This document shows, one piece after another, positions 1-17,428 of a stretch of 22,539 nucleotides of DNA (its first letter is position 1; each line of letters begins with the position of its first letter). The notes below the pieces were generated by a model that saw nothing but the letters and a program-made list of their open reading frames with translations, was not told the origin of the DNA and made no database searches. Source of the DNA: a virus; IMG/VR virus record IMGVR_UViG_3300032323_000151, positions 1 to 22,539 of that record, one strand, 5' to 3'. Made by a program: the position numbers and the translations under genes.

Positions 1-3000
1 AAGAACTTAGATCAGATTTTGATGGGCGCTGGCCTTGGCGCTATTGGCGCTTCGACTGGTGTTGAGCCTGCGCTTGCCCGTCAGCTTGCCAAAGGCATCG
101 CTACCAAAGAAGCGACTAAAGCCGCAATCAAACAGAGCGCTGAGAGAGAAACCGCCCCTGCTGCTAAACGTGGCGTGGTCAAGCAAGGCGCTATCACAGG
201 CGGTAAAGAGTTTGTTACTGAAGGCGCACAAGGTAGTCAGGAACAGTTGGCACAGAACATCGCACTACAACGTGAAGGACTTGATGTCCCAACGATGCGC
301 GGTGTCTACGGTCAAGGCACGCTGGAAGGTCTTGCTGGTCTCGGTATGGGCGCTGTGACAGGCGGACGCGAAGGGGCTAAAGCTAGGCGTGAGTTGGCTG
401 AAGATGCTACTAGGGGTGGCGACATCCCCGGCCAGTTCACCACTGCCAAAGAAGAACAACAACGTGCTGGCGTAGGCTTCAGCCAAGAGACTGCTGACTT
501 ACTCATGCCTGCTTCTGATGCGGCAGGCGCTCCTCTTGTCGCTGGCGTTACGCCTCCTGAGGTTACTGAAACTACCCCCGCGCCGCCAGCGCCTAAGAAA
601 CCCAGAACAACAGGTGTTGCACTAGACACTGTTGAAGCCGCTGCTGACTATATGCAGGCGATAGATTCTGGCACTAAGAAGCCAAACACAATGCAAGTAA
701 ATGCATTGATGAAGAATCTAGGTATCACTCCTCCTGAGAAAGGGGAAGGTTATCTGGGCCGCTCAGTTGCGGCAGTTAAAGCGCATCTTGCACAACAAGG
801 AGCACCCGATGCTACAGGAACTGACACCGACACAAGTGGAACAGGCGCTGGAGTGGCTCCACTCGCCGCTACAGGTCAGCCCGCCGCAGGGGCTGCAGGA
901 CCTCAACCCGATGGAATGGTATCTACTGGAGCAGCTACTCAACCAAATCTGGGTGGAGCAGGCGCACAGCCCGCTGCACTGAACGCCGGTACGCAACGCC
1001 TCATCGCTGACGAACTGCAAGGCGGCGCAACTCCTGCGGAGCTGATTACTAAATACGGCGGCACGCCAGAGCTTGCTGCCAGCGTTGACACGTTCATTAA
1101 ATCCATACCACCTCAAGGAACTCCAAGTGGCCCTGCGACCTCTGAAACCCAGCAAACAGAAACGAAAAGACAAGAAGCACCAGCTGCCGGACCAGCAGTA
1201 ACGCCTGAAGTTAAACCCGCTGGCTCTGTAAGCCTTGGCGATTTAGCGCCAGAACTGCAAGATGATATTCAGTCTCGCAGGGACGCTATCTATGAAATGG
1301 TTGCTGATGGCGCTAAGGCAAACAAAGTTGCTGCGGCGTACAAAGCTCTAAATGCTTTGGAAGAGCGGCACGGTTTAGATATCACTAGCCCTACTACGCT
1401 TAGTGCTAAGCGGGATAAACAAGGTCGTCTTAAAACCCAAGACATCATTGACGAAGGTGGTCAAGCATCCGCCGTTGAGCAAGACAAAACACCTGCGTAT
1501 CAAGGCACTGACTTGCAAGAGGCAATGAACCTCGCGGACAAGTACGAGAAGCAGGAAGAACAAGAGAAGCAGCAGGCCTACCAAGAGTCCTTGGGCGCAG
1601 GTAAAGCACGCTACGACCAGAAAAATCTTCCTCCCAACACTGAGGAGAACTACGACGCTGTAGCCGAAGAAATTAGCGCAAGGACTGATACGGCTAACGC
1701 AACCCGTAGCGAACTTGTCAAAAGAACGGAAGATTTAAATAAACAGCACCGTGAAGCTGTGGCTGAAGTCGAGCGTCTTGAAGATGCCATTGAAGCTGCT
1801 GAACGTAACAACGATCAGAAAAAGTTAGCGATACTGCGTGAGCAAGAGAACGAGGCCACCCGACGTGAAAGCGATTTGCTTGGTGATCTGATTGATGCGC
1901 AAACAGCGCTGCAAGACCACGGTCCCGTGCAAAACAAGCTTGAGCCTTGGGCTAAGCTTGACTCTGTTGACAAGGACATCTACTTTAGCTTCATCCGCAA
2001 CAACACTCCCGCTGAACACCGTCAAGCTGCCGCTGCGTTGTTGGATGCAAAGAACAAGGCAGGCGTTAAGTCTCGTGAAGGCGAAGGCAAGATGGATGCA
2101 GCGGAGCGCCGCGCTGCTCAAAACTACGAAGACAACCGCGCTCAAATGAGCAAGATATTCGGGCTGCAGTTTCCTGCATGGGACAAACTGTCTCCTGCGG
2201 CAAAGGCTGTGTATCTCAGAGAGATTGTCAACAACGCAGGCCAACAACAAGACGTAGCGTTTGCCAAGCTTGGCGTCAAGCTAACTCAAGACAACAAGTC
2301 GCTGAGCGAGAAAGAGAAGCAGAAGGATATTCAAGCTCTCCAGCAGCACCAACGCAGAGTGCAGGTGATGCGCGAGCGCAGACGCCGCCTTGACGAACGC
2401 CTTAGACGCGACTACAACCGCCGCGCTTCGCTGGGTATCGGGCAGACTTTCTACGGCATGCTGCCTGACAACGTCGTCAAGCTTATTAAGGACGGCAACC
2501 TGCAAGGCGTGTTGAACTACCTGCGTAACATTCCAGAAGCTGCTGGCGGTACAACAAGCCAAGGCCGTCAGATTGCCAAGACCGTGGCCAACGTCATCTG
2601 GAACATGGGTCTTAAGACCAAGATTCGTATCGTTGATACGTTGCCTGACGAAGACTTGGCTATCTACGATCCTGTCAAGGATGAGATTCTTGTAACACCT
2701 GAGGGCTTAAGCGGCTCAACTATTTTGCATGAGGCAGTGCATGCTGCAACGGTGAAAATTCTGAGTCACTTCGTCGCTGGCAGATTCAATATGCTGACAG
2801 CCTCACAGTTGGCTGGCGCTAAACAGCTTCAGGCCATCATGGACATGACCAAGAATGATCTTGGCAAAATGTTCCCTAGCCACTACGCAAACCTTCTTGA
2901 GTTTGTTTCCTATGCGCTGACCGATTCATCTTTCCAGCAAGCGCTAAACGATTTCTCAAGCACGTTGTTGACTGGCAAAGAGAAGGCTGCGTATGACAAA

Positions 3001-6000
3001 CTGAGTTCTGTATTTAGAAAATCTTTGTTCCTAAAAGACGGCGTGCAATCAGAGCCAGAATTTAAATCTGCCTTGCCGACTGTGAGAAAAGCGTGGACAG
3101 ACTTCAAGCTGGCGATGGCAAAGATTTTTGTTGTTGGCAGTACGGTCAACCAAAAGACTGGCGCGGTTAAAAACATCTCGTTGAAAGACGTGATGTTTAA
3201 GAAGGACGGGACACTCAACGAAGCTGCGCCAAGCAATTTGCTGATGGAAGTATCCGCAGCGTTTGAAGATATTCTTGAAGTGCCGACAGAGCCAATCTAC
3301 ATGGCTAAACTGCCAGCTAAAAAGGGCGCTGCCCCTGCCGCAGCGCCTAAGAAGGCGGATGAGTTCCGTGAGTCTGGTCTCTATGACGAAGACAAGTCAT
3401 ACAACTTGAGCGAGCGTGAGAACCCGACCAAGCAAAGCGCTGCGTTCTACAAGATGTTTACTACCCGTGAAGGCTGGAGGAACATCACCCGCGTGGTGCA
3501 AGACAAGAGCTATGCATCGCGTAGTCTGTTCACCAAGCTTGATAGGGCGAAGAAAATTAATCGTGACATGTCTGGCACGTTTAATAACTGGGAAGAGCAG
3601 GGCGATCTGTCTACGGGCGAAGCACGTCAGTTCTTTACTGACTATCTGCAAGAGCCGATGGATAACATCCGTCAGTCTTTCCAAGACTGGATTAAGTTGA
3701 CTGACAAAAAGACTGATCAGGCCCTCAACGAGTTCCATAGAATTGTTGAGATGTTCCACGAGCCAGAGCGCCGTCTAGCTAAGTGGATTACATCCGTGCC
3801 TCTGAGCAAAACTCAGAACCTGACACAAAACGGCAAGCCTATCAGCGCGGCTGAACGGCGTATTGCTATTCTTGGCGATCAACGCAACGGCACTGCTGGC
3901 CTCATCCACAAAGTTGAGTTGACTCAACAGCAAAGGCAAGCTCTCTGGCAGGAGTTGACATACCTTGCTGAAAACCACGCAGACGAATTTGGTGATAGCC
4001 CACGCATCACTGAGAAAATGCGCGAGCGTTTTGCAAAACCGGGGTCGAAGCACAAAGGTATCGACATTAAACTGGAAGCGCCTATCTACAACGTGCTTGG
4101 TATTGAGAAAGCCACCGTAAATAAACGCATGGCTGAATACATGGCCAAGAGTCCAGAAGAGCGCGCAGCTATCGAGAAGATTCTTGCCGAGGCTAGAGTC
4201 TTGAGTAGCGCTACGGCTAAGCTCAATCAGGTCGGCAACTACTGGTCATCGCCTGTGTCCAATCTGGTTGGCATGTACGACTACCAATACTACATGCCGT
4301 TCAAAGGCCTGTCTAAGCACAGCAAGAGCGACGAGTTGATTGACCCTGAAAGCCACGGCAAAGAGATGCAGGAACTAGAGCACTCTGCCGATGGCCGTTT
4401 CAAGACCTCTGACAACCCCATCTTGCAATTGATCAACGATGGATACAGATCAGCTGGGCGTGCGGGTCGCCGTAACTACACACAGGCAATCAAGAACGCT
4501 GTTAAATCCAACAAGTACAACCCTAACGGCACGGGGATACTGCCGGGCGAAGTCGTAAATACGATCAAATTTGAAGAGCGCAACACCGTCGATATGTCGA
4601 AGTACAAAGGCGGGGCCAACATCTTTCACTACAACCCCGACGGTTCTATCGACATCATCCGCATCAACGAGCCAAAGATTCTGAACGCGCTGCGCTACAC
4701 CTTCCGTGATGCAAAACCGTGGGTGGACCTTGCAAACTCTATAACAGGGTTCTTCGGGGCAATGCACACACGCTACAACTACAACTTCGCACCTCTCAAC
4801 TTTGTGCGCGACACGTTGACCAACGCATGGACTATCGGTGCTAGCCGCCAGATGGGTCCGATAGCTGCGGCGCAGTATCTAGGTTCTGTCAGTGCGCAGA
4901 TAGTTAAGAACGGTCTTGGCAAAGCGATGCACGTTGCGCTGCTGGAAGAAAAAGGCGACGCGTCAAGCAAGAAGATGCTGCTCGACGCTGCCCAAGACCC
5001 ATTCGTCAGAGACATGCTTGAGTACCTCCGCTTTGGTGGCAAGACAACGTACCTGCAAGGCTTCTCTCTGAAGTCAAACCTTGAACAGCTCAGTGAAAAT
5101 ACTATTGGGCGTTCACGGATCGTTACCAACTTGGAAGATGCTGGAAGACTGATTGACACTTGGAACAACATGTTCGAGTTCACAGGCCGCACTGCTGCGT
5201 ACACCATCTACAAAGACAAAGCTTTGGCAAAGAATATCAAAGCCGGTATGTCTAGCGCGAAAGGGCCTCAAGGCCAGATGTCTCCTGCAGAGCGCGCCGC
5301 TGCGGTGGAAGCTGCGGCGTTTGTAAAGAACCTCGCTAACTTTGAAAAGGTTGGCGAGAAGGGGCGTGAGTTGGGCGCGCTGTACATGTTTATTCGCCCT
5401 GCTGCCACTGGCGCTGTTAGAGCAATCGAAGCAGTGATGCCTGCCTTCACCCGCGAGAAATACGAAGAGGCTGATCTACCCCCGCAGATCGCAAACGATG
5501 AAGCAGCCAAAGCCGAGTACATGGAGAACTTTAAAAAAGAACGCATGTACGCACAGATCATGGTTGGGGCATTAACGGGCGCTGGCGTGGGGCTTTACTT
5601 GCTGTCTATGCTGGGCGCGCCAGATGATGAGTGGGGTCGTAACAATACCAAGACTGACAACATGGAGCAGTGGACACGCTTTGCGCGTTTCCATATTCCA
5701 AACGAAGTGTCAGAGCAACTTGGGCTAGGCAAAAACGTTGTGTTCCAGATTCCTTGGGGCTTTGGCTTGGGGGCGTTTGCCGCAACGGGTGCGCAGATTG
5801 CCGGTATGGGTACGGGCAACGTGTCTATCAAAGAAGGCCTTGGCAATATCATGGGAACAATCATGTTGGATTCGTTCCTGCCTTTGCCGATATCCAAAAT
5901 TCCAGTCACAGAGTCGCCTTTAAATTGGTTTATAGATTCAACCGTGCCTAGCGTTATGAGGCCGTTAACTGAGTTCATTTCGAACATGAACGGTATCGGG

Positions 6001-6624
6001 CAGACCATTAACAGCGCCTCTCAGCGCCGTATGGGTGACGCGTTTACTGGCAGTGACCGCATCCCTGAAATCTACAAGGAAGCAGCAAAGTGGTGGTTTA
6101 GGGCAACGGATGGTGAAGGCTTTGCTGGGGTCCCCGGTGACATCAGCCCCAACACTATTTATTTCTTGGCCAACAGCTACTTAGATGGTCTTTCTAAAAT
6201 TGCTGAAATCACATACAACTGGGCCAATCTTGACAAAGGTGAGAAAGAGTTCAACCCTAAGAGCGACATCCCACTGTTTGGCTCGTTCTTCGGCGCTAAG
6301 ACTAACGTTGATTCGCGCCTGTACACCAAGGTGGAGAAGAAGATCAAAGAGATTGACAAGCGCCTTGTCTCTATGGAGAAAGATAATCCCGTGCAACACG
6401 CGCTGTACGTAGCCAAGAACCCTCTGTACCCAAGCATTGTTGATGTGTATCAGTCTAAGCAGGGCGAATTGAACGAGCTTCGTCAAAAAGCCACTGAGAT
6501 TCGTACCGCGAGATACCTGAGTCCAAAAAGTCGTGATCAAATTTTGAGGACAATCACGCTTGAGCAGAACATGCTCAAGTACCAGATGGTTGAAGAGTTC
6601 AAGGTGCTGGGCATAGAACCTTAA
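1..6624 (+). CDS. Large polyvalent virion-associated protein with zincin motif and LPD38-like C-terminus (5' partial)
   Basis: The frame is open from base 1 with no upstream stop, so the N-terminus is missing; the TTG/ATG at 19-24 is probably internal. Residues below count from the codon at 19. The N-terminal 140 residues are Gly/Ala-rich with hydrophobic helices. A Pro/Ala/Gly/Thr-rich linker spans about 185-400, and charged, probably coiled-coil stretches lie near 500-525 and 568-634. HEAVH at 904-908 is a zincin-type HExxH metalloprotease signature. NFVRDTLTN near 1594-1602 and the Arg-rich C-terminal helices resemble the LPD38 domain of large polyvalent phage proteins. One hydrophobic segment, 1843-1866, could cross a membrane. 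Such proteins are usually packaged in the virion and ejected with the DNA. The metalloprotease role is inferred from the motif. The stop overlaps that of the convergent gene. Confidence 0.85.
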   Translation, partial: KNLDQILMGAGLGAIGASTGVEPALARQLAKGIATKEATKAAIKQSAERETAPAAKRGVVKQGAITGGKEFVTEGAQGSQEQLAQNIALQREGLDVPTMRGVYGQGTLEGLAGLGMGAVTGGREGAKARRELAEDATRGGDIPGQFTTAKEEQQRAGVGFSQETADLLMPASDAAGAPLVAGVTPPEVTETTPAPPAPKKPRTTGVALDTVEAAADYMQAIDSGTKKPNTMQVNALMKNLGITPPEKGEGYLGRSVAAVKAHLAQQGAPDATGTDTDTSGTGAGVAPLAATGQPAAGAAGPQPDGMVSTGAATQPNLGGAGAQPAALNAGTQRLIADELQGGATPAELITKYGGTPELAASVDTFIKSIPPQGTPSGPATSETQQTETKRQEAPAAGPAVTPEVKPAGSVSLGDLAPELQDDIQSRRDAIYEMVADGAKANKVAAAYKALNALEERHGLDITSPTTLSAKRDKQGRLKTQDIIDEGGQASAVEQDKTPAYQGTDLQEAMNLADKYEKQEEQEKQQAYQESLGAGKARYDQKNLPPNTEENYDAVAEEISARTDTANATRSELVKRTEDLNKQHREAVAEVERLEDAIEAAERNNDQKKLAILREQENEATRRESDLLGDLIDAQTALQDHGPVQNKLEPWAKLDSVDKDIYFSFIRNNTPAEHRQAAAALLDAKNKAGVKSREGEGKMDAAERRAAQNYEDNRAQMSKIFGLQFPAWDKLSPAAKAVYLREIVNNAGQQQDVAFAKLGVKLTQDNKSLSEKEKQKDIQALQQHQRRVQVMRERRRRLDERLRRDYNRRASLGIGQTFYGMLPDNVVKLIKDGNLQGVLNYLRNIPEAAGGTTSQGRQIAKTVANVIWNMGLKTKIRIVDTLPDEDLAIYDPVKDEILVTPEGLSGSTILHEAVHAATVKILSHFVAGRFNMLTASQLAGAKQLQAIMDMTKNDLGKMFPSHYANLLEFVSYALTDSSFQQALNDFSSTLLTGKEKAAYDKLSSVFRKSLFLKDGVQSEPEFKSALPTVRKAWTDFKLAMAKIFVVGSTVNQKTGAVKNISLKDVMFKKDGTLNEAAPSNLLMEVSAAFEDILEVPTEPIYMAKLPAKKGAAPAAAPKKADEFRESGLYDEDKSYNLSERENPTKQSAAFYKMFTTREGWRNITRVVQDKSYASRSLFTKLDRAKKINRDMSGTFNNWEEQGDLSTGEARQFFTDYLQEPMDNIRQSFQDWIKLTDKKTDQALNEFHRIVEMFHEPERRLAKWITSVPLSKTQNLTQNGKPISAAERRIAILGDQRNGTAGLIHKVELTQQQRQALWQELTYLAENHADEFGDSPRITEKMRERFAKPGSKHKGIDIKLEAPIYNVLGIEKATVNKRMAEYMAKSPEERAAIEKILAEARVLSSATAKLNQVGNYWSSPVSNLVGMYDYQYYMPFKGLSKHSKSDELIDPESHGKEMQELEHSADGRFKTSDNPILQLINDGYRSAGRAGRRNYTQAIKNAVKSNKYNPNGTGILPGEVVNTIKFEERNTVDMSKYKGGANIFHYNPDGSIDIIRINEPKILNALRYTFRDAKPWVDLANSITGFFGAMHTRYNYNFAPLNFVRDTLTNAWTIGASRQMGPIAAAQYLGSVSAQIVKNGLGKAMHVALLEEKGDASSKKMLLDAAQDPFVRDMLEYLRFGGKTTYLQGFSLKSNLEQLSENTIGRSRIVTNLEDAGRLIDTWNNMFEFTGRTAAYTIYKDKALAKNIKAGMSSAKGPQGQMSPAERAAAVEAAAFVKNLANFEKVGEKGRELGALYMFIRPAATGAVRAIEAVMPAFTREKYEEADLPPQIANDEAAKAEYMENFKKERMYAQIMVGALTGAGVGLYLLSMLGAPDDEWGRNNTKTDNMEQWTRFARFHIPNEVSEQLGLGKNVVFQIPWGFGLGAFAATGAQIAGMGTGNVSIKEGLGNIMGTIMLDSFLPLPISKIPVTESPLNWFIDSTVPSVMRPLTEFISNMNGIGQTINSASQRRMGDAFTGSDRIPEIYKEAAKWWFRATDGEGFAGVPGDISPNTIYFLANSYLDGLSKIAEITYNWANLDKGEKEFNPKSDIPLFGSFFGAKTNVDSRLYTKVEKKIKEIDKRLVSMEKDNPVQHALYVAKNPLYPSIVDVYQSKQGELNELRQKATEIRTARYLSPKSRDQILRTITLEQNMLKYQMVEEFKVLGIEP

Positions 6625-13083: not shown

Positions 13084-13395
13084 TTACTTCTTGCGTTCTT
13101 TCTTGCTAGTCTCTGACACCAAGTTTCCTTGCGAGTCTCGACGGAACGAACGGTTCTTTGCCGCGCTTTGAATGCGCAGACCATCTTTGTTCAGGCCACC
13201 CTTGTCAAGGGCTTTGACGTGCGATACGTCTTTGCCTTCACGCTTGTCGGCTTTGCCGTTGCCGTTGGCATCGACTCCAGTCTTGTCGATTGCGCGGCGT
13301 CCACGTTGTCGCTCCATGCGGCGCTCATGCTCGTCACGGGCTTTCTGTTGCTGGTACTCTTTCTTGTACGGGCGGGGTTTATTGACGTAGGCCAT
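13084..13395 (-). CDS. HNH-like small basic phage protein, 103 aa
   Basis: A very basic protein, Lys/Arg-rich throughout. Its C-terminal half shows GKDVSHVKALDKGG followed by NRSFRRDSQGN. This matches the DVxHxxxLxxGG...NRSFxR pattern of short HNH-like phage proteins often annotated as HNH endonucleases. Only one clear His is present in the core and no zinc cysteines are visible, so nuclease activity is uncertain; structural nucleic-acid binding is an alternative. Two adjacent ATGs exist (13398 and 13395). AAGGAAAG upstream fits the second better by spacing, and both overlap the TGA of the Cas4-like nuclease gene. The longer frame to 13467 lies inside that gene. This is the last gene before the helicase leader. 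Confidence 0.7.
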   Translation of the reverse strand: MAYVNKPRPYKKEYQQQKARDEHERRMERQRGRRAIDKTGVDANGNGKADKREGKDVSHVKALDKGGLNKDGLRIQSAAKNRSFRRDSQGNLVSETSKKERKK

Positions 13396-14048
13396 CATCT
13401 TTCCTTGTGGTGGGGGCAGGTGTTCACGGGACACCAGCCGCAAAGGGGTGTTGGGTTCGGGTTCCAAACATCGTTTATATACGATGCGTCAAGGCGATTC
13501 AAGTCGGGTTTGAAGGCGTCCCACAGCTTGGGGATGTCTTCCCTAGAATACTCTTCGTCCAAGAAACTGTTGTACGCAACGAAGAGGAGTCCGGCTTTGA
13601 TTCGGTTGATTTGTGGGTAGTGAGCGAACGCCATGAGCGCCATGAGCTTTAACTGTTTTGGCTCAGGGTACTTGTTGCTCCCGGTCTTGTAGTCAATGAT
13701 GAACGCTGTGTCACCATCGATGATCATCAAGTCCACGATGCCCCGCACCCAGTAGCCCTTGCCGTACTCACATGCGTTACCGTCAACATCAAGCGCCATT
13801 TTCTGCTCAGGGTATCGAGTCCCCTCAATCTCCAAGAGCGTGTCGAGCACAGGTTTGAACTGCTGGTAGTTCTTGGCAAGGGGCTTGCCTTCTCCAACGT
13901 AATCTTCACAGGCCTTATGTACCTCGTTGCCATACGTCATCTGCGGGGTCGGCTTCTTGTGAAAGCGCTTTAGCACCTTGATTTCGTGGTACTGCTTTGG
14001 GCAGTTAATGTAGTCCTTGAGGGACGAAAAAGACCATGTGAAGTTCAT
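13395..14048 (-). CDS. Cas4/RecB-like PD-(D/E)XK nuclease with possible Fe-S cluster, 217 aa
   Basis: Probably a DNA exonuclease of the Cas4/AddB-like group that serves phage replication or recombination. The sequence starts WSFSSLKDYINCPKQYH, typical of these nucleases. His44 in the GNEVHK stretch, Asp106 in GIVDLMIID, Asp119 and Lys121 in IIDYKTG and Gln132 form the PD-(D/E)XK active-site set. Cys16 plus Cys203, Cys206 and Cys211 (CxxCx4C) match the four-cysteine layout that ligates iron-sulfur in Cas4 and AddB, with the last spacing one residue shorter than usual. It overlaps the upstream 55-aa gene at an ATGA and the downstream HNH-like gene by one base. No CRISPR array is present, so a CRISPR role is unlikely. 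Confidence 0.88.
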   Translation of the reverse strand: MNFTWSFSSLKDYINCPKQYHEIKVLKRFHKKPTPQMTYGNEVHKACEDYVGEGKPLAKNYQQFKPVLDTLLEIEGTRYPEQKMALDVDGNACEYGKGYWVRGIVDLMIIDGDTAFIIDYKTGSNKYPEPKQLKLMALMAFAHYPQINRIKAGLLFVAYNSFLDEEYSREDIPKLWDAFKPDLNRLDASYINDVWNPNPTPLCGWCPVNTCPHHKER

Positions 14049-14212
14049 TTTTTCATATTCCTAACGTATGCCGCAAAGGATGCGGCGGTATCACCCAGTG
14101 ACTTCATCTTATCGAACTCTCTGGCAACTTCTTCCAGTGTTGCGTTGCGCAGGTTGCGCTCATATTGTTTTGTGTCAACGTAGTCCTGAATGTCGTCATC
14201 GTCTTCTCTCAT
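14045..14212 (-). CDS. Small acidic protein, 55 aa
   Basis: An ORF shorter than usual gene-calling cutoffs, supported by context. Its ATG (14210-14212) has AAGGAG seven bases upstream. It overlaps the TGA of the wHTH gene at one end and the ATG of the Cas4-like nuclease at the other, both as ATGA. The N-terminus is strongly acidic (MREDDDDIQDYVD), followed by a helical, mixed-charge stretch with LRNATLEEVAREFDKM. It fills the whole gap between its neighbours in a chain of coupled genes. I do not recognise a family. A small partner or inhibitor of the nuclease is possible but only inferred from adjacency. Confidence 0.75.
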   Translation of the reverse strand: MREDDDDIQDYVDTKQYERNLRNATLEEVAREFDKMKSLGDTAASFAAYVRNMKK

Positions 14213-14598
14213 AGTGATCTCCTTATTTCTCTAACTTTGTCGCGTGGCAACCCCATGTTGAACACGCTGGTCATGCGGATTGCTTTGATGGCCTTGTGCT
14301 CACTGCGCTGTCGGTTCAGTCGGATGTCTGGCTTGGGCCTTGGCTTGTCGGGCTTGTCGCCCAGCATGAACACCGCCCGTGGGTAGCGCCTTGCATCGTC
14401 GTGTGCATGGGTCCAGTCTGCAACGTAGATGCGCTTCTCGCCAGCCTTGGTGCGTTTGTTCATGCGGTTGAGCACAGCGTGTGCATCATAGCGACCGATG
14501 TCGGCGTAGTCGGCAAACTCTTGTGCGGTCAAGCGACCGAACTCTGCGAATGCCTCCAGTGCCTTGATGACGTGAAAGCCTGTGTTGGTTGAGGTCAC
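14209..14598 (-). CDS. Winged-helix-like DNA-binding protein, 129 aa
   Basis: The N-terminal 75 residues read as a winged helix. Helix HVIKALEAFAEFGRLTAQEF is followed by the turn-helix YADIGRYDAHAVLNRMNK, then a wing-like GEKRIYVADWTH. After that comes a Lys/Arg/Pro-rich linker (DKPDKPRPKPD) and a basic tail ending in REIRRSL. Phages often encode such proteins for control of replication genes. The start is GTG at 14596-14598, preceded by GAGGAAAGC, and it overlaps the TGA of the upstream 75-aa gene by four bases. Its own TGA overlaps the 55-aa gene start. The DNA target is unknown. Confidence 0.75.
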   Translation of the reverse strand: MTSTNTGFHVIKALEAFAEFGRLTAQEFADYADIGRYDAHAVLNRMNKRTKAGEKRIYVADWTHAHDDARRYPRAVFMLGDKPDKPRPKPDIRLNRQRSEHKAIKAIRMTSVFNMGLPRDKVREIRRSL

Positions 14599-14822
14599 GC
14601 TTTCCTCGCTTTCAGCATCTGATCTGCTACGTCATACGCCCATAGAGCAACGCGCCACGGGTCATTCGGACAAGCTTCAAAATTGAACGCGCCGCTGCTC
14701 TCCCTTGCAATAAGCCCCTGCATCGCCTTGGCTGCAAAGTAGTCGCGCAGGGTCATGCCGCCCTCTGGTTTGTCAATCATTACGGTGGGAAACGCTGGCC
14801 CGCCTGTGTTTGTATTGCTCAT
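14595..14822 (-). CDS. Conserved small phage protein, 75 aa (GGPAFPT...GMTLRDYFAAKAMQ type)
   Basis: Contains GGPAFPT near the N-terminus and GMTLRDYFAAKAMQ in the middle. I recognise these as the hallmark of a widespread uncharacterised phage protein family. The C-terminal half is helical (PWRVALWAYDVADQMLKARK). I place the start at the ATG of 14820-14822 because GGAG lies seven bases upstream; the TTG at 14834 would add four residues with no ribosome site. The ATG overlaps the stop of the 29-aa Cys-rich gene, and the TGA overlaps the GTG start of the wHTH gene. No enzymatic motif is seen. Confidence 0.82.
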   Translation of the reverse strand: MSNTNTGGPAFPTVMIDKPEGGMTLRDYFAAKAMQGLIARESSGAFNFEACPNDPWRVALWAYDVADQMLKARKA

Positions 14823-14908
14823 ATAAATCTCCAATCACCACAGCGGGTGCAACGGTATGCGGGTCGGTCTTTGTTGTCGCCGGGTTCCCAGCGGTGTTTA
14901 CAGGTCAT
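14819..14908 (-). CDS. Tiny Cys-rich, zinc-ribbon-like protein, 29 aa
   Basis: A micro-ORF that fills the gap between two conserved small genes. Its ATG (14906-14908) overlaps the TGA of the MKTTIEL gene, and its own TGA overlaps the ATG of the GGPAFPT gene, both as ATGA. AAGGGGGAACAC precedes the start. The sequence begins MTCKHRWEPG and ends YRCTRCGDWRFI. This gives Cys3, His5, Cys20 and Cys23, a CxH...CxxC set able to bind one zinc ion. Trp7 and Trp26 could form a small core. The size is at the lower limit for a folded zinc ribbon. Function is unknown. Confidence 0.7.
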   Translation of the reverse strand: MTCKHRWEPGDNKDRPAYRCTRCGDWRFI

Positions 14909-15132
14909 GTGTTCCCCCTTGCTCGGATGGCATCTTGTATTTTCATTGCCGTGCCAGCTTCATGGTCTGAACTTGAATCGACATAGCCGTCACACACCTT
15001 TGCACACGCCTCACGCTCATCAGCACGAACAAGGGCAACAAGGCGCTCAAGTTCGGGTGAAACGTATGTCACGCCCTCAAAGGACATCAATGGGAAGCCA
15101 GCTTCTTTGCAGAGTTCTATCGTGGTTTTCAT
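14905..15132 (-). CDS. Conserved small phage protein, 75 aa
   Basis: The pattern ELERLVALVRADEREACAKVCD in the middle is very common in short phage proteins of unknown function. The N-terminus MKTTIELCKEAGF and the C-terminal helix TAMKIQDAIRAR flank it. I chose the ATG at 15130-15132 because GAGGAG lies upstream. The longer frame to 15192 lies within the upstream TM-protein gene and includes no better ribosome site. It overlaps the upstream gene's TGA and the downstream 29-aa gene's ATG by four bases each. A folding or binding role cannot be assigned from sequence. Confidence 0.78.
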   Translation of the reverse strand: MKTTIELCKEAGFPLMSFEGVTYVSPELERLVALVRADEREACAKVCDGYVDSSSDHEAGTAMKIQDAIRARGNT

Positions 15133-15326
15133 AAACAACTCCTCAGTGTCATTAGGCCAAGCATCAGGACAATGAATCCCAACACAGCCCACACCAATTG
15201 CCCGTCAGCAGGGGTGGGCTTTTCGTCTTCGTCATTCACAGTGGAGCCTCTTCGTGGTTGCCGGGGTTGAACTTGGGGACTCGGTTGCCCGTGTCTTTGG
15301 GGTTTGGGAATGGTGGGAAAGGCCAT
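15129..15326 (-). CDS. Small tail-anchored membrane protein, 65 aa
   Basis: The first 30 residues are Pro/Gln/Arg-rich (IPKPQRHGQPSPQVQPRQP), followed by an acidic stretch (NDEDEKPTPADGQ). A single C-terminal hydrophobic segment of about 17 residues (LVWAVLGFIVLMLGLMT) ends in LRSCL. This predicts one transmembrane helix anchored at the C-terminus with the N-terminus probably cytoplasmic. I start at the ATG 15324-15326, one base after the TGA of the coiled-coil gene, with AAGGAG about 11 bases upstream. An in-frame TTG at 15356 is less likely. Holin or spanin function is possible, but neither is supported by position among replication genes. Confidence 0.68.
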   Translation of the reverse strand: MAFPTIPKPQRHGQPSPQVQPRQPRRGSTVNDEDEKPTPADGQLVWAVLGFIVLMLGLMTLRSCL

Positions 15327-15327
15327 G

Positions 15328-15534
15328 TCATAAGCCACTCTCCTTGTACTCCTCAATGCGATCTTTCAATCTCTCAATCCTTGCCTCGTTGTATGCCACC
15401 ACGCTGTTGGCGTAGTCTGCCGCCGACTCAGCTTTGAGTTTCTCCAGCTGTGCTTCACGCAACTCCTCTTTGGTGATTTCCAAGAGGGTGATCGGCCTTC
15501 TCAGGCGCTTGTACAACTCTAACATCTTATTCAT
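15328..15534 (-). CDS. Small coiled-coil phage protein, 68 aa
   Basis: Nearly all helical and highly charged: LELYKRLRRPITLLEITKEE, then repeated Ala/Glu/Lys/Arg positions to IERLKDRIEEY, consistent with a two-helix coiled coil. I recognise the general type (small proteins with AEARIERLK-like ends) from many phages, without known function. AAAGGAG upstream of the ATG (15532-15534) is a strong ribosome site. The polymerase stop is 25 bases upstream, the largest gap in this part of the cluster. Its end contains the ribosome site for the membrane protein that follows. Confidence 0.78.
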   Translation of the reverse strand: MNKMLELYKRLRRPITLLEITKEELREAQLEKLKAESAADYANSVVAYNEARIERLKDRIEEYKESGL

Positions 15535-15559: not shown

Positions 15560-17428
15560 TTAACATTCGCCGTAGGTCTGTGCGTACTTGGCTTCGCAAG
15601 TTACGGGTAAACCCTTAGCCCACTCAGGTGGCGTAGACATGCACTCAATGATGAACGCCATAGCCGCATCCTTCTCCGCCTCCGGAACCACGATCACCGC
15701 CGCATCGTGGACAGTCAGTGCAACGCGATAACGCTCGTTGATCTTGAGCATCTGCTCACCCACGATGATTCGCGCCAAGGCTTGAACCACGTTCTCAACT
15801 AGCGACCCACCCCACAGTGACACTGGGCCTTTGCGGGACTTGTAGACGTACTGACTCTTAGACTCGGACGTGTCGCGTTTTAGTTCTGGGTATCGAATAG
15901 AAAGACCATTAGGGAGGTGAACCCCGTCCTTGGTGATCTTCAGGCACTTGTGTTCGCCGTAGTAATAGGGCTTGCCTTCCCAGTTGGCTAGGTCAGCAAT
16001 CACCTTGTCACCGTCACGCCAAAGCTGAATCACCTTGTCGTTGGCCTCGCGGTATGTGTCAACATAACTCTTGGCCTCCTCCTCAGTGACGACTGCGCCC
16101 GGCGGCTGAGTCTTGAGCGTGTGCTGAAGCTTTAACGCCCCAGTGCCGTAACCCAGACCCAAGATGCAGGTCTTGCCCACGAAGCGTTCAACGGGGTCAG
16201 CCTTGCTGATGGGGCGGTTGTATATCTTGGATGCGAACAGCGAGTAGACATCCTCTCCCTTGCGGAACTGCTCAACCACGTCCTCCTGTCCAGCCAGCCA
16301 GACAAGCACACGGGCCTCAATCTGAGAGGAGTCGCAGTTGATGACGATGTGGTCATCAGGCGCTACGACAGCGTTCTTGAGGGCTTTCTTTTTCTTGTCT
16401 CTACTTGGTAGATTCTGGAAGTTAACCTTATCACTTCCCGCCCAACGCCCCGTATGCGCTCCGTAGTATTTGAGTGGGATAGGTAGGCGGCCTTTGTTGC
16501 GCTTACCAACGTCAATGAATCTCTCGATTCGTGACTCTTCGATGGTGGACTTTGTGCCGAGTCGCACAGCGCACAGTTGCTGGATGGTTGGGTCATCATG
16601 TTCAGTGAGTTTCAGAAAGCCTTCGTCGTTCTTCGCCAAGGCATAGGTCTGCTTGCCTGTTGTTTTGCTCTCTTTCATGGGGACTTCAACCCCGCGCTCG
16701 ACTAAAACTTCAGCAAACTGTTTATTACTGGCTAAGCGTTTACGCACAGCCTCAGTGGTTTCGCATTTTAATTTCTCCATCAAGCCCTCAAGAAGTTGCT
16801 CCTTTTCCTCCTTGAGTTCGTCATAGCGCTCTTGCAAGAGTGCGTCATCCACAAGGAACACTGGGTGCGTGAACATCCGCAGTGTCATGTCGATCAGCTT
16901 CATCTCGTTCTCAGGGAACGCGCTCGACAATATCTTGAAGAGCCTAAGGGTGAGATCAACGTCATTCATGCAGTACCTGCCGTATCGCTCAAGTTCATCT
17001 TTGGTGAAGTCGAGCCGAGCCTTGCCCTCAGCCGCTATCACTTCCTCGCCCTTGACGCCAATCCCGTAGCGTTCAGCCAGCGCCTTGAGTGAGCCACCTG
17101 CCTCAACGCCATGAATTGCTCTCGCCATACACAGAGTGTCGAACATGAACGCGGGCGTCACGCCGTAGAGCCAGCTAAGAATTGCTCCATCGAAGAGCGT
17201 GTTGTGGCACAGGAGAGCGCTGTTGCTCCAGTCAAATGACGCCAAGAACTCTTTGATCTTGTCCTTGCCGCCCGACACCCAGACAGTCTCACCATCGTCC
17301 ACCTTCACGCCCACACCGATAACTTCAAAGCGCTTGTCGCGTATGTATTCCTCAGTTGTTTGGTGCTTGAAGCCGAGCTTGATCTTGCTGTCGTAGTAGG
17401 TCTCAAAGTCAATCGTTATCAACGACAT
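15560..17428 (-). CDS. polA-like: Family A DNA polymerase with 3'-5' exonuclease, 622 aa
   Basis: The phage replicative polymerase. The proofreading domain has Exo I DFE at 7-9, Exo II HNTLFD at 75-80 and Exo III YCMND at 152-156. The polymerase domain has motif A NCDSSQIEARV with Asp366, motif B RFVGKTCILGLGYG with Arg415, Lys419, Leu423 and Tyr427, and motif C VHD with Asp575. No 5'-3' exonuclease domain is present, as usual in phages. Leu423 aligns with E. coli Pol I Phe762, so this is the Leu762 type. GGGAAGC lies just before the ATG, and the start overlaps the 62-aa gene by 20 bases. All catalytic residues I can place are intact. Confidence 0.95.
   Translation of the reverse strand: MSLITIDFETYYDSKIKLGFKHQTTEEYIRDKRFEVIGVGVKVDDGETVWVSGGKDKIKEFLASFDWSNSALLCHNTLFDGAILSWLYGVTPAFMFDTLCMARAIHGVEAGGSLKALAERYGIGVKGEEVIAAEGKARLDFTKDELERYGRYCMNDVDLTLRLFKILSSAFPENEMKLIDMTLRMFTHPVFLVDDALLQERYDELKEEKEQLLEGLMEKLKCETTEAVRKRLASNKQFAEVLVERGVEVPMKESKTTGKQTYALAKNDEGFLKLTEHDDPTIQQLCAVRLGTKSTIEESRIERFIDVGKRNKGRLPIPLKYYGAHTGRWAGSDKVNFQNLPSRDKKKKALKNAVVAPDDHIVINCDSSQIEARVLVWLAGQEDVVEQFRKGEDVYSLFASKIYNRPISKADPVERFVGKTCILGLGYGTGALKLQHTLKTQPPGAVVTEEEAKSYVDTYREANDKVIQLWRDGDKVIADLANWEGKPYYYGEHKCLKITKDGVHLPNGLSIRYPELKRDTSESKSQYVYKSRKGPVSLWGGSLVENVVQALARIIVGEQMLKINERYRVALTVHDAAVIVVPEAEKDAAMAFIIECMSTPPEWAKGLPVTCEAKYAQTYGEC

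Follow-up and report, generated by a model that had tools for sequence, protein, structure and literature searches.

A 29-codon gene for a candidate minimal zinc ribbon, overlapping both its neighbours and apparently exchanged as a gene-exact cassette among aquatic phages

The 90 bases at 14908-14819 of a viral genome fragment are, on comparative sequence evidence, a real phage gene of 29 codons, which probably encodes a minimal zinc-binding protein and which, to judge from its changing surroundings, passes between unrelated aquatic phages as a cassette whose limits are exactly those of the gene. We consider it likely that the account as a whole is correct, namely that a translated zinc-ribbon mini-gene, coupled to its neighbours by reinitiation, is exchanged as an optional cassette. 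The window, by which we mean the whole 22.5-kb stretch of DNA analysed, is an IMG/VR virus record with a family A DNA polymerase, an SNF2 helicase and an exonuclease. Its DNA had no match among 50,697 phage records, and its polymerase shares at most 36% identity with the polymerases of listed phages. At one end, an open frame of more than 2200 codons (1-6624, plus strand), cut by the contig end and perhaps encoding a giant internal virion protein, runs in the direction opposite to the replication genes.

The mini-gene and its overlapping neighbours

The mini-gene (MTCKHRWEPGDNKDRPAYRCTRCGDWRFI; 14819..14908 on the minus strand, stop included) starts with ATG at 14908, the only ATG, GTG or TTG start after the preceding in-frame stop, and ends with TGA at 14819. 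Its ligand layout is C3-x-H5...C20-x-x-C23. It belongs to a run of small minus-strand genes joined by eight successive 4-base overlaps, which leads from near the family A DNA polymerase (15560..17428, minus strand, 3.2e-38) to a PD-(D/E)XK exonuclease (13395..14048, minus strand; PDDEXK_1 1.3e-15, phrog_69). The run opens with a 68-aa gene (15328..15534, minus strand), followed by a 31-aa proline-rich micro-gene (15236..15331, minus strand; MTWPFPPFPNPKDTGNRVPKFNPGNHEEAPL) and a 36-aa gene that starts with GTG and whose product, on visual inspection, probably has one membrane stretch (15129..15239, minus strand; VNDEDEKPTPADGQLVWAVLGFIVLMLGLMTLRSCL), both coupled on both sides. The proline-rich micro-gene is 72-94% identical in most polymerase relatives and is likely unlisted too; a relative of the GTG-start gene was found among the exchanged cassettes described below. 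Then come a 75-aa gene (14905..15132, minus strand; MKTTIELCKEAGF...EREACAKVC...AIRARGNT), for which no Pfam or PHROG family was found at threshold, the mini-gene itself, and a second 75-aa gene (14595..14822, minus strand; GGPAFP...GMTLRDYFAAKAM), which matches PHROG 2201 (E=2.7e-22). A 129-aa possible winged-helix protein (14209..14598, minus strand; a weak MarR_2 match, below cut-off), whose gene has a GTGA overlap with the preceding one, and a 55-aa gene with ATGA overlaps on both sides (14045..14212, minus strand) complete the run before the exonuclease.

On its upstream side, the ATG of the mini-gene and the stop of the first 75-aa gene (15132-14905) form the ATGA at 14908-14905; on its downstream side, the mini-gene TGA and the start of the second 75-aa gene (14822-14595) form the ATGA at 14822-14819. 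The initial annotation credited the mini-gene with a purine-rich ribosome site of its own. Such a site, AAGGGGGA, does stand directly before the ATG. It belongs, however, to the upstream gene, for whose last residues (-ARGNT*) it is coding sequence, and it is part of a joint common to many genes (atccgagcaagggggaacac; 14909..14928, minus strand), which encodes IRARGN(T) at the end of the upstream protein and contains the Shine-Dalgarno AAGGGGG. The arrangement recurs elsewhere. Among 86 contexts of the zinc gene, 71 have an ATGA-coupled upstream open reading frame of at least 30 codons, where the scan pattern demanded ATGA and not an open upstream frame, and in 77 a downstream start overlaps the mini-gene stop. 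The Shine-Dalgarno sequence lies inside the last codons of the upstream gene (in the window, the tail -AIRARGNT*); it is of the type AAGGRG-(0-3)-AACAY in 37 contexts, of another type in 42, and not clear in 7. From this arrangement, termination-reinitiation is the natural inference for how the mini-gene would be expressed.

The reading frame itself is conserved. Within the same polymerase lineage it is intact, with an identical protein in L002 and three substitutions in L003. A pattern scan of viral contigs, which required an ATGA start, CxH, W and CxxC, matched 105 stretches, and together with other loci it gave more than 80 distinct homologous proteins, mostly of 28-46 aa, some with longer C-termini. 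In three subgroups, variation is greatest at third codon positions, Nei-Gojobori dN/dS is 0.22, 0.13 and 0.33, and synonymous change prevails; attention to synonymous versus nonsynonymous change had been suggested as a check. The proposal of a real CxH...CxxC micro-gene is therefore borne out by intact frames in relatives, by the number of viral homologs and by the mostly synonymous substitutions.

The carriers found are all metagenome assemblies. A tblastn search of the 29-mer against the phage collection returned chance-level matches only, and a scan of genome contigs gave 19 matches, none of them a convincing homolog after inspection of the reading frames, so that neither a named bacterial host nor a prophage came to light. 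Only a search with a different member of the family brought out a relative in phage DSL-LC05, itself a metagenome assembly. This 30-aa protein (WJZ48147.1; OR003940.1 10522-10614, L285:3001-3093) is annotated as 'DNA-directed RNA polymerase', which a protein of 30 residues cannot be, and this implausible label might spread to other records. Its presence in the record also qualifies the expectation that genes this short are missed by gene finders, which does not always hold. The view that the family is poorly described was right. According to Fremin 2022, as cited in PMC11323111, thousands of small phage genes have been predicted from metagenomes.

A candidate zinc site in a protein of 29 residues

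In the pattern-fetched alignment (A1), C3, H5, C20 and C23 are conserved and W7 and Y18 are nearly invariant; conservation of ATGA, CxH, W and CxxC there is partly by construction, because the scan pattern required them. Since the ligands were part of that pattern, we used an independent profile with the ligand columns masked, applied to 384 loci fetched by the polymerase, the GGPAFP gene or joint patterns. About 35 clear homologs were recovered, not counting two short matches regarded as spurious. The two knuckles and four Cys/His ligands that characterize the zinc ribbon fold group were found in 33 of these as CxH...CxxC, one other had CxxH, and one was cut by a contig end. The initial annotation had named loss of the Cys/His pattern in close relatives as grounds for abandoning its proposal of four potential zinc ligands; this comparison did not go against the proposal, and the four potential ligands are present and conserved.

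Structure prediction is compatible with this. AlphaFold (AF2), run with a 57-row alignment on a 30-aa relative from L115, placed strands at residues 8-10, 18-21 and 27-29, with a pLDDT of 83 and a low pTM of 0.41. The best PDB folds include the zinc ribbons of XPA, RPB9-C11, aIF2-beta and ZifS, all at E>1 and not significant, so that they are consistent with a zinc ribbon and no proof of one. Like these domains (RPB9/C11, XPA, aIF2-beta, ZifS), the mini-protein has two knuckles and four potential ligands, and three strands are predicted for it at low pTM; it differs from them in standing alone, mostly at 28-46 aa, in its CxH first knuckle, and in the absence of a significant sequence or fold match to them. 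The best Pfam match, PF23549 Zn_ribbon_GRF_2, covers 23 residues at 19.4 bits, below its gathering cut-off of 27 bits, and NCBIfam gave no match for the window mini-protein. PHROG 7696 matches residues 1-25 weakly (E=1.9e-4), over profile positions 27-53 of 78 only and not over its full length; 52 of its 72 members match at E up to 0.1, and at E 0.001 the DSL-LC05 homolog was missed by its family model. In the proposed fold, the CxH and CxxC knuckles would hold one zinc on a three-strand sheet.

Such a protein may most likely act on its own by binding nucleic acid or a host protein, for example RNA polymerase, as a take-over accessory. A narrower form of this role, whose probability overlaps with it, would be regulation through sequence-specific binding of RNA or DNA. 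Among very small zinc-binding phage regulators are Mu Com and P2/P4 Ogr-Delta, both with Cys4 sites. The mini-protein resembles them in its very small size and candidate zinc binding, and its one candidate zinc site, the basic residues near the knuckles, its autonomous distribution and the presence of RNA-polymerase and repair zinc ribbons among the nearest folds would all suit a Com- or Ogr-like function. Its ligands, however, are C,H,C,C and not Cys4, no Com model was among its Pfam families at E up to 1, there was no Pfam match to the Ogr family either, and the fold matches are not significant; we regard this specific role as possible and, on balance, unlikely.

Exchange of the mini-gene and a joint shared by unrelated genes

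The mini-gene lies in a variable island bordered by the polymerase and the exonuclease. In relatives this stretch measures 31-4662 bp and carries differing sets of small genes, and among the relatives compared only the window, L002 and L003 have the mini-gene there; it was found in 1 of 21 relative records searched whole, records that may be fragments. Across contigs its partners come from 25-32 unrelated upstream families and 33 downstream families. The mini-gene had been described as locked to both neighbours. In the sense of ATGA overlaps on both sides, this is accurate; in the sense of fixed partners it is not, given dozens of partners and the absence of the gene from most close relatives.

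The limits of similarity coincide with those of the gene. The window and L003 become identical at the joint and have unrelated genes upstream of it. Of 54 pairs whose mini-genes agree at 90% or more, 42 show similarity that stops at the two edges of the gene; the left limit lies at most 30 bases before the ATG in 49, and 12 pairs have no other similarity within 1 kb. L162 and L240 are 100% identical over the whole mini-gene, from -1 to +2, between unrelated flanks and with no shared joint. More generally, 54 of 247 isolated matches (80-500 bp, at least 95% identical) end at a coupled ATGA on both sides, compared with a mean of 1.3 and a maximum of 5 under random placement; this set includes zinc- and joint-selected loci, and the zinc gene itself accounts for many of the 54. 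Both the mini-gene pairs (42/54) and the isolated matches (54/247) thus show the breakpoints at gene borders that boundary mosaicism would lead one to expect. Separately, on each of the contigs L224 and L193 there are two distinct CxH...CxxC mini-genes, of 30 aa and 40-43 aa, separated by a few hundred bases. In L208 and L192 a longer C-terminal part, which resembles another cassette family (VMRID..GVTV.P), follows the CxH...CxxC module in one fused protein, so modules may shuffle within genes too.

At these borders, unrelated upstream genes share the joint AAGGRG-AACAC-ATGA over 12-25 identical bases, and unrelated upstream proteins have the same ends, KLKEKNT, IRARGNT, IRARSNT or IKENT, encoded by nearly the same DNA. 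This is the short conserved DNA at the borders of unrelated genes that boundary mosaicism predicts. In a comparison of zinc-anchored contexts, with upstream DNA unused in their selection, an exact match of at least 12 bases before the ATG was found in 31 pairs from different upstream families, and one of 25 bases in 12 of them (chance expectation <0.001); these pairs involve few families and so represent few independent events. AACAC is the commonest 5-mer before a coupled ATGA in polymerase-fetched loci, at 28 of 696 (about 0.7 expected with equal base use), and was found at none of 143 in bacterial loci. In pattern scans, the two commonest joints each occur in at least 119 viral contigs, and relatives of the joint are present in the DSL-LC04, DSL-LC05 and Manatee Spring records. 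For each tail, the genes upstream of the joint come mostly from a single large family (of the WxGLT or REACA type), and the family of the upstream 75-aa gene of the window recurs in this position; downstream of the two joints there are 77 and 57 gene families. The joint stands on both sides of 66 single genes, at loci partly selected by the joint. In a 29-aa candidate zinc protein at L485:1103-1188 on the plus strand (MTGYCPICMRPYPDCKCASWSAIRARGNT), the final quarter of the sequence consists of the joint tail. Our literature search found no report of the joint AAGGRG-AACAC-ATGA.

Could the joint have arisen repeatedly, by selection for a strong Shine-Dalgarno sequence and tight ATGA coupling, with no recombination at the joint? 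The core of the joint matches the anti-Shine-Dalgarno sequence and is well spaced, and about half of the zinc-gene contexts have a different Shine-Dalgarno sequence (42 against 37 with the joint) and show gene-exact exchange as well. Convergence does not readily account, however, for identity of 19-25 bases between unrelated proteins that continues through the codons 5' of the Shine-Dalgarno, for a spacer AACAC that recurs without obvious need, or for unrelated proteins sharing KLKEKNT or IRARGNT ends, and we consider it rather improbable.

The tight overlaps on both sides in the window might suggest a dedicated partner of an adjacent product, such as half of a toxin-antitoxin pair or a subunit. 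We dropped this fixed-partner reading, which is very unlikely, because the neighbours vary, with dozens of unrelated families on either side and near-identical copies lying between entirely different genes. Every carrier, DSL-LC05 among them (PMC10611076), comes from a metagenome assembly, so some of the mosaics could be artefacts, chimeras formed at a 90-base repeat. That this explains the mosaics is very unlikely: the repeat is shorter than ordinary reads, the combinations and the samples are many, the window and its relatives L002 and L003 have polymerase and exonuclease in common but part company exactly at the joint, and the ATGA frame is kept precisely in the contexts, which chimeras need not do. 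Finally, it is extremely improbable that the 90 bases, for all their very high DNA identity over exactly the open frame, are an element conserved for its DNA or RNA, or a site of recombination, that is open by chance, since synonymous changes predominate, length differences among homologs keep the frame, and Cys and His are kept while the middle of the protein varies.

Coupling, cassette exchange and phage mosaicism

For the exchanged, coupled mini-gene we propose the following scheme. A ribosome would end the upstream gene at the TGA within ATGA and restart on the overlapping ATG, helped by the Shine-Dalgarno sequence coded in the last codons of that gene, and the gene after the mini-gene would be reached likewise by termination-reinitiation. 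Because each gene carries what the next one needs, a single gene could be exchanged, cut exactly at its start and stop, with expression unbroken, and the mini-gene would be one optional cassette in the variable island between polymerase and exonuclease. Neighbours with AAGGRG-AACAC-ATGA in common have 12-25 identical bases on which a phage recombinase could plausibly act, exchanging genes by homology at the joint. Since many exchanged pairs, L162/L240 for instance, have no joint in common, joint homology cannot be the only route; elsewhere, joining without homology may be followed by selection for an intact ATGA, and the gene-exact limits of such exchanges presumably reflect selection for intact coupling.

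A wider reading, which we offer tentatively and with some doubt, is that aquatic phages share a pool of tiny genes with standardised ends, in effect an integrase-free plug-in system. The last codons of a gene would serve both as its own C-terminus and as the place where ribosomes bind and begin its successor; genes down to 90 bp might then plug in anywhere, and the standard joint would be kept because it makes exchange productive.

Lambdoid phages provide the classic cases of conserved boundary sequences. Such sequences have been proposed as a basis of phage mosaicism (PMC3029335; PMC3974807), yet were not found at most borders, and at Island3 gene 67/68 unrelated neighbouring genes share C-terminal residues and DNA (PMC3029335). 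The joint resembles them in being short conserved DNA at borders where unrelated genes swap. It differs from them in that it encodes the end of the upstream protein as well and supplies the Shine-Dalgarno sequence and start of the gene downstream, in its presence in hundreds of contigs, and in flanking units down to 90 bp; from these comparisons, its double function, its frequency and the size of the units look new.

These findings bear on the old question of how phage genomes become mosaic at gene borders. Here the boundary sequence is common, short and has a putative function of its own in coupling, so that homology-driven and selection-driven models make different predictions. They suggest that a gene of 90 bp can spread as a unit, and the mini-gene family offers a defined set of minimal zinc-ribbon candidates for biochemistry.
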